A DNA stretch of 64,000 nucleotides, taken from an uncultured Acidobacteriia bacterium (GTDB taxonomy: Bacteria; Acidobacteriota; Terriglobia; Bryobacterales; Bryobacteraceae). Below, piece by piece: positions 10,561-16,742 of the stretch; within the stretch, counting starts at the first letter, position 1, and each line of letters opens with the position of its first letter. Position numbers and translations under genes: made by a program. The stretch covers positions 1 to 64,000 of the forward strand of contig CAIVPR010000121.1 of NCBI GenBank assembly GCA_903907865.1. Direction: 5' to 3'. Below the pieces are notes generated by a model that saw nothing but the letters and a program-made list of their open reading frames with translations, had not been told where the DNA came from and made no database searches.

Positions 10561-11466
10561 GTGAAGCAGCGGTGGGCCGTGTCTTACCTTAGAGAATTGA
10601 TCGATCCAGCACACAAACAGGAACATCGCCGCATCTACCGGGTCCTGATCTTCCTCGCAGCCTTCCTTTTCTCGACCGGAGGCGTGGCGATCAAGGCCTG
10701 CTCGCTGACCAATTGGCAGGTGGCGGGATTCCGCTCGGGCATAGCGGCAGTGGTGCTTTGCCTCGTGTTGCCGGAGGCGCGCCAGGGCTGGAACCGCCTC
10801 ACCTTCCTCGCCGGGATCGCCTACGCCGCCACGCTGGTGTCGTTCGTGGCGGCGAACAAGATGACGACGTCGGCCAACGCAATCTTCCTGCAATCGACCG
10901 CGCCGCTTTACATGCTGTTCCTGTCGCCGCTGGTGCTGAAGGAGAAGATCCGGCGGCACGATGTCGCGGTGGTGGCGGCCGTGGCGGTCGGTGCCTTCCT
11001 GCTGCTCCGGGGCTCCGACAATTCCGGCCACGGTGCGGCTCTTGGGAATGCGATTGCGGTATTTTCGGGTTTCGCGTGGGCGCTCACGATGACCGCCCTG
11101 CGCTGGATCGGCTCCCGTGGCAATTCACTTTCCGTAGCGGCGCTGGGGAACGTGATTGCCTTCTTCGGTTGCCTTCCGCTGGCGCTGGCCGATCCCATAC
11201 ATGCCGGAACCTCCGACATCGCCGTCCTGCTGTACCTGGGAGTGTTTCAGATCGCCCTGGCCTATATCTTCCTGACCCGGTCGATCCGGCACGTGCGCGC
11301 CATTGAGGCTGCGACTTTGCTGCTGGTGGAACCGGTCTTCAACCCTGTGTGGAGCTGGGTGATCCGAAACGAACGGCCCGGCGCGGCGGCCTTGGCCGGT
11401 GGCGCGATCATCGTCTTCGCGGCCTTTGGCGGGACTTGGTTCCAGAGCCGGTACTCCGCTACCTAA
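10561..11466 (+). CDS. EamA/DMT-superfamily exporter
   Basis: This 301-residue drug/metabolite-type transporter has ten predicted membrane segments in two EamA repeats (about 30-155 and 165-295). Typical features are FSTGGVAIKA in the first helix, the SANAIFLQSTAPLYMLF segment at the end of repeat one, and AATLLLVEPVFNPVWSW in repeat two. Substrates in this family are small metabolites or amino acids and cannot be predicted. Alternative starts exist at GTG 10579 and TTG 10597; the longest was kept. The stop overlaps by eight bases the end of a convergent small gene. Confidence 0.88.
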   Translation: MKQRWAVSYLRELIDPAHKQEHRRIYRVLIFLAAFLFSTGGVAIKACSLTNWQVAGFRSGIAAVVLCLVLPEARQGWNRLTFLAGIAYAATLVSFVAANKMTTSANAIFLQSTAPLYMLFLSPLVLKEKIRRHDVAVVAAVAVGAFLLLRGSDNSGHGAALGNAIAVFSGFAWALTMTALRWIGSRGNSLSVAALGNVIAFFGCLPLALADPIHAGTSDIAVLLYLGVFQIALAYIFLTRSIRHVRAIEAATLLLVEPVFNPVWSWVIRNERPGAAALAGGAIIVFAAFGGTWFQSRYSAT

Positions 11467-11644
11467 AAATGCGCAAGGGAAGGGTTACGATTCCCCAAAC
11501 CAAGGACAGCACGCCGCCTACGGCAATCCCGACGATCCGCAACGGCAACAGGATCAGCCAGATGATCGGATAGAGGACCAGTGCCACGAGCGCGATCGGC
11601 CAGGAGAGGACAAACAGGATGCACCACACCAAGAAAGTGAACAT
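11459..11644 (-). CDS. Small two-helix membrane protein
   Basis: This 61-residue, almost entirely hydrophobic protein (start MFTFLVWCILFVLSW) has two membrane-spanning stretches separated by a short LLPLRI turn, ending LPLRIFR. A long minus-strand frame continues far upstream but is the shadow of other genes; the ATG at 11644 is the sensible start. Function is unknown. The final eight bases overlap the end of the convergent exporter gene. Confidence 0.6.
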   Translation of the reverse strand: MFTFLVWCILFVLSWPIALVALVLYPIIWLILLPLRIVGIAVGGVLSLVWGIVTLPLRIFR

Positions 11645-11705
11645 GGCGTCTATCTGATGGGACGAACGGGCGCGGCAGTCAGTTCGTCCGTGCTTGAGAT
11701 TTCTG

Positions 11706-11711
11706 GTATGA
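11706..11711 (+). promoter_or_regulatory. Extended -10 box (TGGTATGAT) for the AhpD-like selenoprotein gene
   Basis: TATGAT preceded by TG-G forms an extended -10 element about 30 bases before the ATG at 11741. A GGAG ribosome-binding site follows near 11730, so this gene, unlike several neighbours, has a conventional leader. Confidence 0.4.
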
Positions 11712-11740
11712 TCGGTGGATTCGAAATCCCGGAGACAGCA

Positions 11741-12370
11741 ATGAGTGACGACATAAAACGCGGCCCAGGCATGAAGCCGATGTTTCTGCCGGACGTCGAG
11801 CGCAGCGAAAACCCTTCGGTGTATACGACCATGATTCGTGACCGGCGGGCGGCGGGCGTCGAATACCCGCAGATCTGGCACATGTTCGCGTATCTGCCGA
11901 AAGCCACGGAGCATCTGGCGCGATTTACGCAGGAGATCCTCCGGGGGCCGGCACCGCTGAGTCCGGGAATGCGAGAACTCATCGCGGCATACACGTCGTA
12001 CCGGAATGACTGTCCTTTCTGACTGCAGTCGCACGCCGCAGTTGCGGCGGAATTGCTGGGCAGCGAGACGCTGGTGTGGGGTGTATTGCGCGACTTGGAG
12101 AATTCGGAACTGGACGAGAAGCACAAGGCACTGTTCCGATTCGTGCAAAAGGTGAACGAGGAATCGCCGAAAATCACGGCGGAGGACATGGAGCCGCTGT
12201 ATGGGCAAGGCTGGACGGATGAGGCGATCTATTTTGCGATCACGGTGTGCGCGCTGTTCAACTTCTACAACCGCTGGATTGACTCGAGCGGGGTTCATGC
12301 GTTGTCGGAGGAAGCCCACCGCGAGGGGGGAAAGAGGACGGCGTTGAATGGATACGCGCGGAGTTCTTGA
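11741..12370 (+). CDS. AhpD-like peroxidase-related selenoprotein (CxxU), TGA at 12020 read as Sec
   Basis: The frame 11741-12370 encodes a 209-residue carboxymuconolactone-decarboxylase/AhpD-like protein interrupted by a single in-frame TGA at 12020-12022. That codon falls exactly at the second active-site cysteine: the sequence reads YRNDC-P-F-TGA-LQSHAAV, so Cys91 and the recoded residue 94 form CxxU, followed by His98 at the spacing of the AhpD CxxCxxxH motif. Homology-like sequence continues without shift to the end (AAELLGSET, then YFAITVCALFNFYNRW). AhpD-like selenoproteins are an established bacterial family. The first part is preceded by GGAG. A hairpin right after the TGA fits a bacterial SECIS. 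The role is probably thiol/selenol peroxide or quinone reduction. The last 23 bases overlap the start of the MFS transporter gene. Confidence 0.85.
12023..12058 (+). promoter_or_regulatory. Candidate bacterial SECIS hairpin
   Basis: Directly after the TGA, CGCCGC (12034-12039) pairs perfectly with GCGGCG (12044-12049) around the loop AGTT. The loop begins 18 bases after the TGA and has G in its second position, as expected for SelB-recognised bacterial SECIS elements. CAG 12026-12028 can pair with CTG 12056-12058 as a lower stem. Confidence 0.65.
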
Positions 12371-13607
12371 CGGCTGGTCCGAAACGGCTGAAGCCGAGTC
12401 GGCCGAAGGCTGGCGGGTGGTACTGGCTGCATATTGCGGCGTGATGGTGAGCTTCGGCTCGATGCTGGTGTTCAGCTTCGGCACGTTCCTCAAACCACTG
12501 AGCGCCGAATTTGGCTGGACCCGCGAGGCGGTTTCGGCAGCCTTTGGATTCGCCGCGCTCACGGTGGCGTTCTGTTCGCCGGTGCTCGGGCGCCTGCTGG
12601 ACCGGAGTTCGGAGCGGGGAGGTCCGCGCAGGGTGATTTTGCCGTGCATGGCGATCTTCGGAACGGCATTCGCCTCCCTCGGATTCTTGACCTCGAACAT
12701 CTGGCAGTTGTATGCCACCTTCGTGGTGCTGGGAATTGTGGGCAACGGGACGACGCAGATGGGATATTCGCGCGCCGTTTCCACGTGGTTCGTGCGGAGG
12801 AGGGGTCTGGCGCTGTCGCTCGTGATGGCGGGTTCGGCGACCGGAGCAATCGTATTTCCGCCGCTGGCACAGGCGCTGATTGGCTCAACGGGATGGCGCA
12901 GCGCCTATTTTGTGCTTGGCGCGATGGTGTTTGTGTTCGGCATCCCGTTGACGGCGCTGTTTGTGCGCGAGCGTCCTTTGGCCCCGAAACAGACGGCCCA
13001 ACCGAGGGCGGGCCTTACTGCGCGCGACGGGCTGAAGTCGCGCGCATTTTGGATACTGATCGGCACGTTGTTTCTCGGATCGCTGAGCGTGAACGGCGCG
13101 ATCACCCATCTATCGGCGTTGCTCACGGATCGTGGCATCAGCCAGGAGCATGCGGCATTGCTGGCATCGGCGCTGGGCCTGTTCAGCTTCGCGGGACGTT
13201 TGGTTACGGGGCAACTGCTGGACCGGTTTTCGGGTCCGCGTGTTGGCTTCTGCATCCTTGGTGCCGCGGCGATGGGGATATTACTTTTGGCTGTGGCCGC
13301 CACGACCACGTCCGCGCTGGGCGCGGTTGCCCTGATCGGGTTCGGGATGGGTGCCGAGGCGGATATCACGCCCTATCTCTTGAGCCGGTATTTTGGACTG
13401 CGGGCATTCTCCACGTTGTATGGATTCACGTGGACGGCGTATGCGGTGGCCGGAGCGCTGGGTCCGGTGCTGATGGGGCGGGCGTTCGATCTGACGGGTT
13501 CGTACACTTCGTTGCTGCAGCTGTTGACGGTGTCAACGGCGGTCTGCGCGGCGCTGTACCTCATTCTGCCCGCGTATCCGCGGCTTGAGGTTAGAAACGG
13601 CAGTTGA
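12348..13607 (+). CDS. MFS transporter, monocarboxylate/oxalate-formate type
   Basis: This 419-residue protein has twelve predicted membrane helices. The N-terminus resembles the oxalate/formate antiporter and monocarboxylate group (GTFLKPLSAEFGWTR, then an RLLDRSSERGGPRRV loop between helices 2 and 3). The central loop after helix 6 holds KQTAQPRAGLTARDGLKSRAFW. It starts within the selenoprotein gene (23-base overlap), so the two are translationally linked; the substrate may be related to that enzyme but cannot be named. The final codons (VRNGS and the stop) are supplied by an intergenic repeat that recurs at about 62,460. Confidence 0.88.
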   Translation: MDTRGVLDGWSETAEAESAEGWRVVLAAYCGVMVSFGSMLVFSFGTFLKPLSAEFGWTREAVSAAFGFAALTVAFCSPVLGRLLDRSSERGGPRRVILPCMAIFGTAFASLGFLTSNIWQLYATFVVLGIVGNGTTQMGYSRAVSTWFVRRRGLALSLVMAGSATGAIVFPPLAQALIGSTGWRSAYFVLGAMVFVFGIPLTALFVRERPLAPKQTAQPRAGLTARDGLKSRAFWILIGTLFLGSLSVNGAITHLSALLTDRGISQEHAALLASALGLFSFAGRLVTGQLLDRFSGPRVGFCILGAAAMGILLLAVAATTTSALGAVALIGFGMGAEADITPYLLSRYFGLRAFSTLYGFTWTAYAVAGALGPVLMGRAFDLTGSYTSLLQLLTVSTAVCAALYLILPAYPRLEVRNGS

Positions 13608-13729: not shown

Positions 13730-14746
13730 TTAAGCGGTCAAGCCGAGGTACAGGTCGCGGCCCTGTGCCAACGCCGCGATTTTGCGGTCGGCAACGCTGC
13801 GCTTCAACATCCAGAAGCCGCAGTCGGGGTGGATCCAGCCGACCCGGCCGGCTCCCGCCACCTTCTCCACGGCCTCGATCCGGCGGGCAATCTCCTCCGG
13901 TGTCTCGACGTGGTTGTCCTTCACATCAACCACCCCGATACCAAGCTTGATGCGGGGATCGATGTCCTTCATGGCTTCCAACTCCGACGGCGGACGCCGG
14001 GCGAGTTCCAGCACCACGTGGTCGGCATGCAGTTCGTTGAGGAACCAGGTCAGACGCGCCCATTCGCCTTTCTGGATGGTCTGGCCGCCGTAGTTGCCAA
14101 AGCACAGGTGGACAGCGCGGTTCTTCGAAGTCACCGCGTCTAGCACCGTGTTGATGGCGCGGGCGGCGAGCGGCGCGTCATCGGGGTTGCCGGGGATATT
14201 GGCCTCGTCGACCTGCAGGCAGTCGCAGGGAAGGCCTCGAACCTGATCCGCCAGCACGCGGGCGACTGCCATCGTGAGCTCCTCGAAATTCCCGTAATGC
14301 AGGTCCAGCATGGTGCGGGACAGCATGTAGGGGCTGGTGACGGTGAATTTGAACGGACCACCAGCGCAGCGCGCGGCGAGTTCGCAATCGGTGAGCAGAT
14401 TCAGGCCGCCCTCGCCGAGTTCGTCGACGACGGCGACGGAGGGCTTGCGGCGGAAGCGCATCGCCTCCAGCTTGGAAAACGCCTCGCAATCGCTGCGTCC
14501 GAGCTGGGTCCGGACACCGGCCATGGGACGGACGAAATATTCGATCATCCCGTTGGTGTCGGGGTGGTTGACGTCGAAGCGGTAAAGTTCGCCGTCGGTC
14601 GGCAGGTCGATCCGGGCACGGCGCTGGATGTCGAAAACGACGCGCGTGGCGTCCTCCCGGGCTTGTTCACTGGGTAGGGCGGCGAGCCAGTCGGGGATGG
14701 GGTAGGAACCCACGGTGGTGGTGAGGATCTGTGGCACTGAGGACAT
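13730..14746 (-). CDS. Core-type cobalamin-independent methionine synthase (MetE C-terminal domain)
   Basis: This 338-residue protein corresponds to the catalytic C-terminal barrel of MetE only, without the N-terminal folate-binding half of the roughly 750-residue enzyme. Zinc ligands are in place: His and Cys in VHLCFGNYGG, Glu in HVVLELARRP and Cys in IHPDCGF. Early motifs are TTTVGSYPIP and the LQVDEANIPG segment. Core MetE proteins transfer methyl groups to homocysteine and often use methylcobalamin-type donors rather than methyltetrahydrofolate. The start ATG at 14746 is 29 bases from the divergent msrA start. A longer reading to 14926 overlaps msrA and is unlikely. Confidence 0.87.
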   Translation of the reverse strand: MSSVPQILTTTVGSYPIPDWLAALPSEQAREDATRVVFDIQRRARIDLPTDGELYRFDVNHPDTNGMIEYFVRPMAGVRTQLGRSDCEAFSKLEAMRFRRKPSVAVVDELGEGGLNLLTDCELAARCAGGPFKFTVTSPYMLSRTMLDLHYGNFEELTMAVARVLADQVRGLPCDCLQVDEANIPGNPDDAPLAARAINTVLDAVTSKNRAVHLCFGNYGGQTIQKGEWARLTWFLNELHADHVVLELARRPPSELEAMKDIDPRIKLGIGVVDVKDNHVETPEEIARRIEAVEKVAGAGRVGWIHPDCGFWMLKRSVADRKIAALAQGRDLYLGLTA

Positions 14747-14760
14747 TTTATGCCTTGACC

Positions 14761-14766
14761 TATGCT
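14761..14766 (+). promoter_or_regulatory. -10 box TATGCT for msrA in a 29-base divergent gap
   Basis: TATGCT ends nine bases before the msrA ATG at 14776. The whole gap to the divergent metE-like start is 29 bases, so the two promoters must interleave. TTGACC lies immediately before TATGCT, too close to be its -35. Confidence 0.45.
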
Positions 14767-14775
14767 GGAAGCAGA

Positions 14776-15312
14776 ATGGCAAAAGAAATAGCGACGTTGG
14801 GCGGCGGGTGCTTCTGGTGTCTGGAATGCGTGTACAACGACACGCGCGGCGTGGAGAGCGCGATTTCGGGCTATATGGGCGGTGCGCGGTCCAATCCGAC
14901 ATACCAGCAGGTGTGCAGCGGCGCAACCGGGCATGTCGAGGTGGTGCAGGTGGCGTTCGACCCCGAGGTGATCAGCTTCCGCGACATCCTGGAGATCTTC
15001 TTCGTCATCCACGACCCCACGACGCTGAACCGGCAGGGGAATGACGCGGGGACGCAGTACCGGTCGGTGATCTTCTTCCACTCGGCGGAGCAGGAGGCCA
15101 CGGCGCGCGAGATCATCGCGGAGTTGACGGCGGCGAAGGCATTCGACGCCCCGATCGTGACGGCGGTCGAACCGGCGAAGGCGTGGTGGCCCGGCGAGGA
15201 ATACCACCAGAACTATCTTGCGAACAACCCCAACCAGCCTTACTGCCTGTACGTGGTGCGGCCCAAGCTGGACAAGTTCCGGAAGAAGTTTGTGGAAAGG
15301 CGGAAGTCATAA
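14776..15312 (+). CDS. msrA: Peptide-methionine (S)-S-oxide reductase
   Basis: This 178-residue MsrA has the diagnostic GGCFWCLE motif at residues 10-17, whose first Cys attacks the S-sulfoxide, and the downstream YRSVIFFHS and EEYHQNYL signatures of the family. It repairs oxidised methionine in proteins using thioredoxin-type reductants. The start at 14776 places MAKEIATLGG at the N-terminus; an upstream in-frame start at 14731 would run into the divergent gene. The shared 29-base gap with a methionine synthase-type gene links methionine synthesis and repair. Confidence 0.95.
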   Translation: MAKEIATLGGGCFWCLECVYNDTRGVESAISGYMGGARSNPTYQQVCSGATGHVEVVQVAFDPEVISFRDILEIFFVIHDPTTLNRQGNDAGTQYRSVIFFHSAEQEATAREIIAELTAAKAFDAPIVTAVEPAKAWWPGEEYHQNYLANNPNQPYCLYVVRPKLDKFRKKFVERRKS

Positions 15313-16349: not shown

Positions 16350-16742
16350 ATGACCATCGAAGTACGGCAAACCGGCACCTCAACATCCGAGGCCGCGATA
16401 CGCGAACACCGGATCGCAATCGACCGCCCGCTGGAAAAAGGCGGCTCCGACGCCGGGCCGATGGGCGGCGAATTGTTCCTCGCCGCGATTGGCGGGTGCT
16501 TCATGAGCAACCTGCTGGCGGCGGTAGTCGCCCGGAAAGCCGACGTTGCCGACGCCCGCGTCACAGTCAATGCGACCGTCTCCGGCACGCCGCCGACGTT
16601 CACCCGGATCGAACTGGCCGTCTCGGCCACCTGCGCCGATCCCGAACTGCTGGCGAAGTTGGTCGAAATCGCGGACCGCGGCTGCATCATGATGAACACC
16701 CTGCGGGGCAAGCTCGACCTCGCGGTCAGGATCGCGGGCTGA
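16350..16742 (+). CDS. OsmC-family peroxidase/redox protein
   Basis: This 130-residue protein has the OsmC fold pattern: an N-terminal beta layer, GPMGGELFLAAIGGCFMSNLLAA carrying the first reactive Cys on the central helix, and DRGCIMMNTLRG carrying the second. OsmC proteins reduce organic hydroperoxides with this Cys pair. The gene starts eight bases after the NDT-like fusion and ends one base before the APC permease start, so it is probably co-transcribed with both. Peroxide defence fits the nearby msrA and AhpD-like genes. Confidence 0.9.
   Translation: MTIEVRQTGTSTSEAAIREHRIAIDRPLEKGGSDAGPMGGELFLAAIGGCFMSNLLAAVVARKADVADARVTVNATVSGTPPTFTRIELAVSATCADPELLAKLVEIADRGCIMMNTLRGKLDLAVRIAG

Follow-up and report, generated by a model that had tools for sequence, protein, structure and literature searches.

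A gene in a 64 000 nt stretch of DNA from an uncultured member of the Acidobacteriota (the whole of this stretch is called the window) very probably encodes a redox selenoprotein with the AhpD fold, from the carboxymuconolactone-decarboxylase (CMD) superfamily and of the COG2128 type, in which an in-frame UGA would be read as selenocysteine (Sec) by means of SelB, tRNASec and a hairpin in the mRNA. The probability of this reading is put at ∼0.93. That the product is a selenoprotein is held with near certainty, Sec insertion itself being predicted from comparison of sequences. A role in peroxide or thiol-redox chemistry is moderately favoured. An earlier note on this DNA had proposed an AhpD-like CxxU selenoprotein with a bacterial SECIS element in a Sec-inserting organism, and the proposal is supported by the sel genes of the genome, by the distribution of TGA and Cys codons among homologues and by a covarying hairpin. 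The features concerned are listed in Table 1.

Table 1. Coordinates in the window of the AhpD-like gene and of the elements associated with it
Feature	Position	Strand	Remarks
Likely ribosome-binding site GGAG	11731..11734	+	5′ of ATG 11741; probable, assigned by eye
AhpD-like (TIGR01926/CMD) selenoprotein gene, predicted	11741..12370	+	one internal TGA, taken as Sec, within 209 residues; stop codon TGA, 12368–12370
Cys91 codon TGT	12011..12013	+	first residue of CxxU
In-frame TGA, predicted Sec94	12020..12022	+	
Candidate bacterial SECIS apical hairpin CGCCGC-AGTT-GCGGCG	12034..12049	+	bases 12–27 after the TGA; loop starts after 17 nt
MFS transporter	12348..13607	+	overlaps the 3′ end of the selenoprotein gene; homologue in 36/94 loci

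Between the initiating ATG and the terminal stop, the frame contains one internal TGA. Residues 91–98 read C-P-F-U-L-Q-S-H, with Sec as residue 94 and His as residue 98 (C91-P-F-U94-xxx-H98); coordinates, frame, TGA and the C-P-F-U-x-x-x-H motif had thus been accurately described. Under standard gene calling the frame stops at 12022, and an ORF listing with translation table 11 splits the gene in two, as had been anticipated, giving 11399–12022 (with an upstream GTG start) and 12053–12370. This behaviour would suit a genuine stop codon, with the locus being either a decaying pseudogene or the gene of a short protein of 93 residues, but such a reading is very improbable. A first argument against it comes from selection: the pooled dN/dS (window versus 80 relatives, synonymous sites being near saturation) is 0.118 5′ of the TGA versus 0.135 3′ of it and, by this measure, purifying selection is alike on both sides of the codon. 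A second concern is an antisense ORF of 441 amino acids, at 11459–12784 on the minus strand, which spans the whole selenoprotein gene and could be the real gene, with the plus frame as a by-product. This is scarcely credible, since Pfam and NCBIfam matches were found in a family search of the plus frame and since most nucleotide differences fall at plus-strand third codon positions (3776 and 4617 on the 5′ and 3′ sides of the TGA, respectively, versus 1423–2027 at positions 1 and 2). Neither Rfam at gathering thresholds nor ARAGORN (for tRNAs) returned a match in the window. A promoter and terminator scan of 11460–12450 gave no promoter-like site and two terminator-like sites, both on the minus strand.

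The protein scores 87.4 bits on TIGR01926 (peroxidase-related enzyme; cut-off 81.8) and 29.8 bits on Pfam CMD PF02627 (cut-off 23). A profile of 21 sequences, comprising the window protein and 20 relatives, finds 2pfx, 2prr, 3c1l, 2oyo and 6k40 as best PDB matches (E-values 7e-21 to 4.1e-18). The best predicted model has a pLDDT of 85.1 and a pTM of 0.82, the other four models having pLDDT values of 68.7–74.9, and residues 1–15 are unreliable; a fold search with the best model places the same five structures on top, with TM-scores over the query of 0.66–0.73. In the 21 sequences, E79, C91, F93, U94 and H98 are invariant. Their spacing is that of the relay E118/C130/H132/C133/H137 of Mycobacterium tuberculosis AhpD, described in PMC3141380 as Glu118, Cys130, His132, Cys133 and His137. 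Together, the two family matches and this spacing uphold the assignment to AhpD-like proteins with a CxxU site.

The identity of the codon at the Sec site was followed in homologous loci. A genome collection yielded 163 relatives, of which the best 80 were fetched and 83 left out; 30 further loci were taken from 396 searched genomes of the phylum, the window's own genome among them, 154 of which had a match. TGA occupies the site in 80/80 of the fetched relatives (the best 80 of 163). Over the 110 loci, the CxxU motif aligns with the CxxC motif of Cys homologues, and the codon is TGA in 91, TGC in 12 and TGT in seven, with neither TAA nor TAG nor any other codon. Close homologues thus keep TGA and others have Cys at the site, which answers the earlier concern that the codon might be a true stop in close relatives and is the second argument against a genuine stop. 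A sequencing or assembly error that turned TGC or TGT into TGA in one genome is an even remoter explanation, the least probable of all those considered: TGA is indeed one base away from the Cys codons, but the same TGA recurs in many separately deposited genomes. TGA copies have 44–100% identity, except L127 (36%), and Cys copies form a closer set of four (L103, L104, L108 and L109, 50–53%) and a distant set of 15 (34–40%). Among 29 extra loci, TGA is found in all 19 with at least 54% identity (eight of these new) and in L155–L162 (31–35%), which belong to a different branch; TGC is found in L153 (48%) and L154 (35%). Many other distant matches of the 396-genome search, outside the 110-locus tally, contain TGA somewhere, and the alignments of L114 and L115 also cross a TGA at query position 32. 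Genome G427 has a second copy, 56% identical, without an internal stop.

The 6 bp hairpin with an AGTT loop, announced at 12–27 bases past the TGA, is indeed found there. According to the bacterial SECIS model of PMC13188914, the loop has 3–9 nt, the upper stem 4–16 bp, the distance from UGA to loop is 16–37 nt and the folding energy is ≤ −7.5 kcal/mol, and one of the first two loop bases is G, as a rule with G or U after it. The present hairpin lies within all these published limits (loop AGUU of 4 nt with G second, stem of 6 bp, distance of 17 nt, −10.8 kcal/mol when folded alone). On a single sequence its folding is not beyond chance: the 56 nt stretch has z = −0.66 versus dinucleotide shuffles, and codon-preserving redraws give a mean z of −0.55 over the 91 TGA loci and +0.74 over the 19 Cys loci. 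The reason for such unremarkable values is that Ala codons largely fix four of the seven pairs of positions (13–26, 14–25, 16–23 and 17–22, numbered after the TGA).

Conservation of the hairpin was consequently gauged by a fixed-pair test instead of single-sequence folding, on 107 of the 110 loci (88 distinct TGA and 19 Cys loci; the duplicates L100–L102 were dropped). In pairs 12–27, 15–24 and 18–21, both partners are third codon positions. Complementarity holds in 83/88, 87/88 and 87/88 distinct TGA loci, respectively, counts reached in 0/2000 shuffles, a test inflated by kinship among the sequences; exchanges at these pairs include C-G to T-A and A-T to G-C. All seven pairs are kept in 80/88 distinct TGA loci, eight failing to do so, versus a mean of 8.2 and a maximum of 19 in 500 synonymous redraws, and in 0/19 Cys loci; this redraw control and the contrast with Cys copies do not rest on shuffles alone. 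Seven of eight further TGA loci with >45% identity, new to the test, also have all seven pairs. The loop is GGTC in 47/88 loci, AGTT in 33/88 and different in 8/88, with G as its second base in 87/88. Its bases 1 and 4 covary among relatives (A/T or G/C) and, as pair 18–21 lies inside the four-base loop, they may touch across the loop instead of forming an ordinary stem pair. This resembles the N1-N2 pair across the loop of the published model, but with only two bases between. As judged across the aligned relatives, the hairpin is maintained by compensatory change, well beyond chance. Its agreement with the published limits and its covariation bear out the claim of a SECIS-like element at the right distance for SelB, and its restriction to TGA copies is the third argument against a genuine stop.

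The genome that contains the window (7.5 Mb in 186 contigs, completeness 98.27, contamination 1.8) possesses a full set of Sec genes. tRNASec scores 69.4 bits, over the Rfam cut-off, and is given the anticodon TCA by ARAGORN; a second Rfam match over the cut-off (49.8 bits) is a tRNASer according to ARAGORN. Genome searches found selA (494.6 bits) and selB (363.7 bits), both nearly full length, and selD (363.7 bits), which has its own in-frame TGA followed by a hairpin GTCCAA-AGTTA-TTGGAC, whose loop begins at the same distance from the TGA as that of the AhpD-like gene. In selD (L129, minus strand), the TGA lies near locus base 2393, in a motif read by eye as G-U-A-S-K-L. For comparison, among 14 well-known control genomes the cut-offs are passed by tRNASec in five, selA in one, selB in two and selD in two. 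The sel genes sit on contigs other than that of the window, and wrong binning of these contigs is possible but unlikely because of the relatives. The presence of selA, selB, selD and tRNASec agrees with the earlier expectation of an organism that inserts Sec.

UGA read-through occurs in bacteria, and a near-cognate or suppressor tRNA might insert Trp or Cys at the codon independently of SelB. This reading is about as improbable as that of a genuine stop, in view of the complete sel machinery, the second TGA gene (selD), the covariation of the hairpin and the sole occurrence of Sec and Cys codons at the site. Under the preferred Sec reading, SelB and tRNASec would decode the UGA at 12020–12022 as selenocysteine, with the hairpin at 12034–12049 directing the insertion. 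Recognition of SECIS elements can differ from one species to another.

Co-occurrence with the sel genes was examined in two sets of genomes. Among 31 chosen genomes, selA and selB are both over the cut-off in 10/10 with a TGA copy, 3/19 with a Cys copy and 0/2 without a match (Fisher p = 1.4e-5 for 10/10 versus 3/19, kinship uncorrected). The contrast is confounded by kinship because 15 of the 19 Cys genomes belong to one family (f2); likewise, 15/19 Cys copies come from the distant set (34–40%), and in the TGA genome G156 the sole copy is a distant one (36%). Among 41 nearer relatives, selA is over the cut-off in 16/19 genomes with a close TGA gene and in 16/21 without a close copy, as well as in G439, the sole genome with a Cys copy. 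Within this set, selA is independent of the AhpD-like gene, as expected if Sec has other uses. Three TGA genomes depart from the rule: no selA over the cut-off was found in G407 and G409 (stated completeness 83% and 91%), and G419 has selA as two contig-end pieces only (80%). With the window's genome included, selA is over the cut-off in 27/30 TGA genomes and 4/20 tested Cys genomes.

A midpoint-rooted tree of 106 of the 110 loci (87 Sec and 19 Cys proteins), with long branches and an unsure deeper order, requires three changes of the Sec/Cys label. The closer set of four Cys copies falls within the Sec clade, next to L087 (support 97/92; 99/94 for the four together), which suggests a loss of Sec in favour of Cys there. 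Three of their four genomes are without selA and selB over the cut-off, and G086 has both. The distant branch L155–L162, from the same order (e.g. L156:1495-2022, minus strand; 31–35% identity), has TGA at the position of the second Cys in 8/8 loci, in a motif CHY-U-VDxH; its hairpin is another one (CGACCTC-loop-GAGGTCG), and the TIGR01926 score of L156 is 139 bits. Three loci labelled Chthoniobacterales, Cyanobacteria and Proteobacteria (L019, L054 and L058) nest among Acidobacteria copies. As L054 equals L100, from a genome of the same phylum, over the compared stretch, mislabelled bins or transfer are possible.

Downstream of the gene, the MFS transporter resembles lactate and oxalate/formate carriers most closely in NCBIfam, with every score below cut-off. 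Its homologues were counted by tblastn over 94 loci, which include duplicates and loci truncated at contig ends. This count was preferred to a clustering of neighbours based on long ORFs, which was noisy and whose largest cluster probably consisted of spurious ORFs. The 36 positive loci include the window's own, the duplicate L101, the Cys locus L108 and three partial matches. In 35/36, the match is on the same strand and centred ∼460–1000 bases past the TGA; in L093 its centre is at 1959. Further downstream in the window lie msrA (14776–15309, plus strand, over the NCBIfam cut-off) and, by eye, a putative OsmC-like gene (16350–16742, plus strand); neither was found in the 94 neighbour loci, not all of which extend far enough downstream to show it. 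A gene for a methionine-synthase-like protein occupies 13730–14926 on the minus strand, with all NCBIfam matches well below cut-off. It is tempting, albeit doubtful, to propose that in this mostly soil clade Sec is the older state, with Cys arising by reversion, partly in genomes without sel genes, and that the gene and a carboxylate-type MFS carrier often make up a two-gene unit; this would suggest substrate-specific redox chemistry or dehalogenation acting on a compound taken up by the cell rather than a general defence against peroxides. What the family does, and when Sec is abandoned, can be approached through the recurrent MFS neighbour and the apparent reversion from Sec to Cys.

The AhpD relay spacing, with Sec in place of Cys133 and Phe in place of His132, makes it likely that C91 and U94 undergo a redox cycle, as far as can be deduced from the sequence. 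C91 and U94 would form a selenenylsulfide redox pair, aided by E79 and H98, and this pair may reduce peroxide or hand electrons to a partner peroxidase. The spacing Glu-12-Cys-3-Cys-4-His is common to the present protein, M. tuberculosis AhpD and Pseudomonas aeruginosa PA0269 (as described in PMC3141380), but Sec here replaces the second Cys, and Phe93 stands at the His132/Tyr50 position of AhpD proteins. Peroxidase activity may thus be weak or different.

CxxU selenoproteins of the AhpD-like type, COG2128 or TIGR01926, have been published in 2005 (PMC1088965), 2008 (PMC2398784), 2022 (PMC9312934) and 2026 (PMC13188914). Selenoproteins had been recognized in this redox family before, and the finding, though correct, amounts to no more than an additional member, the underlying principle being established. 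The rarity that the earlier note implied is overstated: the family is published and, in addition, 19/60 searched relatives of the genome have a TGA copy with at least 54% identity. In Acidobacteria, a 2006 survey describes four selenoproteins of three families (PMC1794560), and three known selenoprotein genes are described in Occallatibacter riparius (PMC12013277). Among the papers listed on selenoproteins in connection with AhpD-like proteins, Acidobacteria/Acidobacteriota, soil, Solibacter usitatus and Bryobacter, none describes the present clade in its title or abstract opening. A well-supported selenoprotein is added to a phylum, Acidobacteriota as judged by the record titles of the relatives, for which these two sources describe few.

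Comparison with known systems delimits the place of this protein. The structures found by both profile and fold (2pfx, 2prr, 3c1l, 2oyo and 6k40, all peroxidase-related) are its best matches, yet share only 20–25% identity, and 2pfx, 2prr and 3c1l have CxxC where the present gene has CxxU. Foldseek gives a weak match with AhpD of M. tuberculosis (best E = 0.22). Also weak, at 29.5 bits versus a cut-off of 175 bits, is the match with NF041238, an AhpD-related family of alkylhydroperoxidase-related (seleno)proteins with the motif CFYUT, which may hold Sec. Nearest in kind are the AhpD-like selenoproteins of the Sargasso Sea and GOS selenoproteomes, which, by their published description, have in common with the present protein TIGR01926, CxxU and a SECIS element with a G in the loop. 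The published members are described from marine metagenomes, Alkaliphilus and MCB9421940.1 (PMC1794560 included), whereas the present gene belongs to a clade with CPFU-xxx-HAAVAA whose records are mostly labelled as Acidobacteria or its subgroups.
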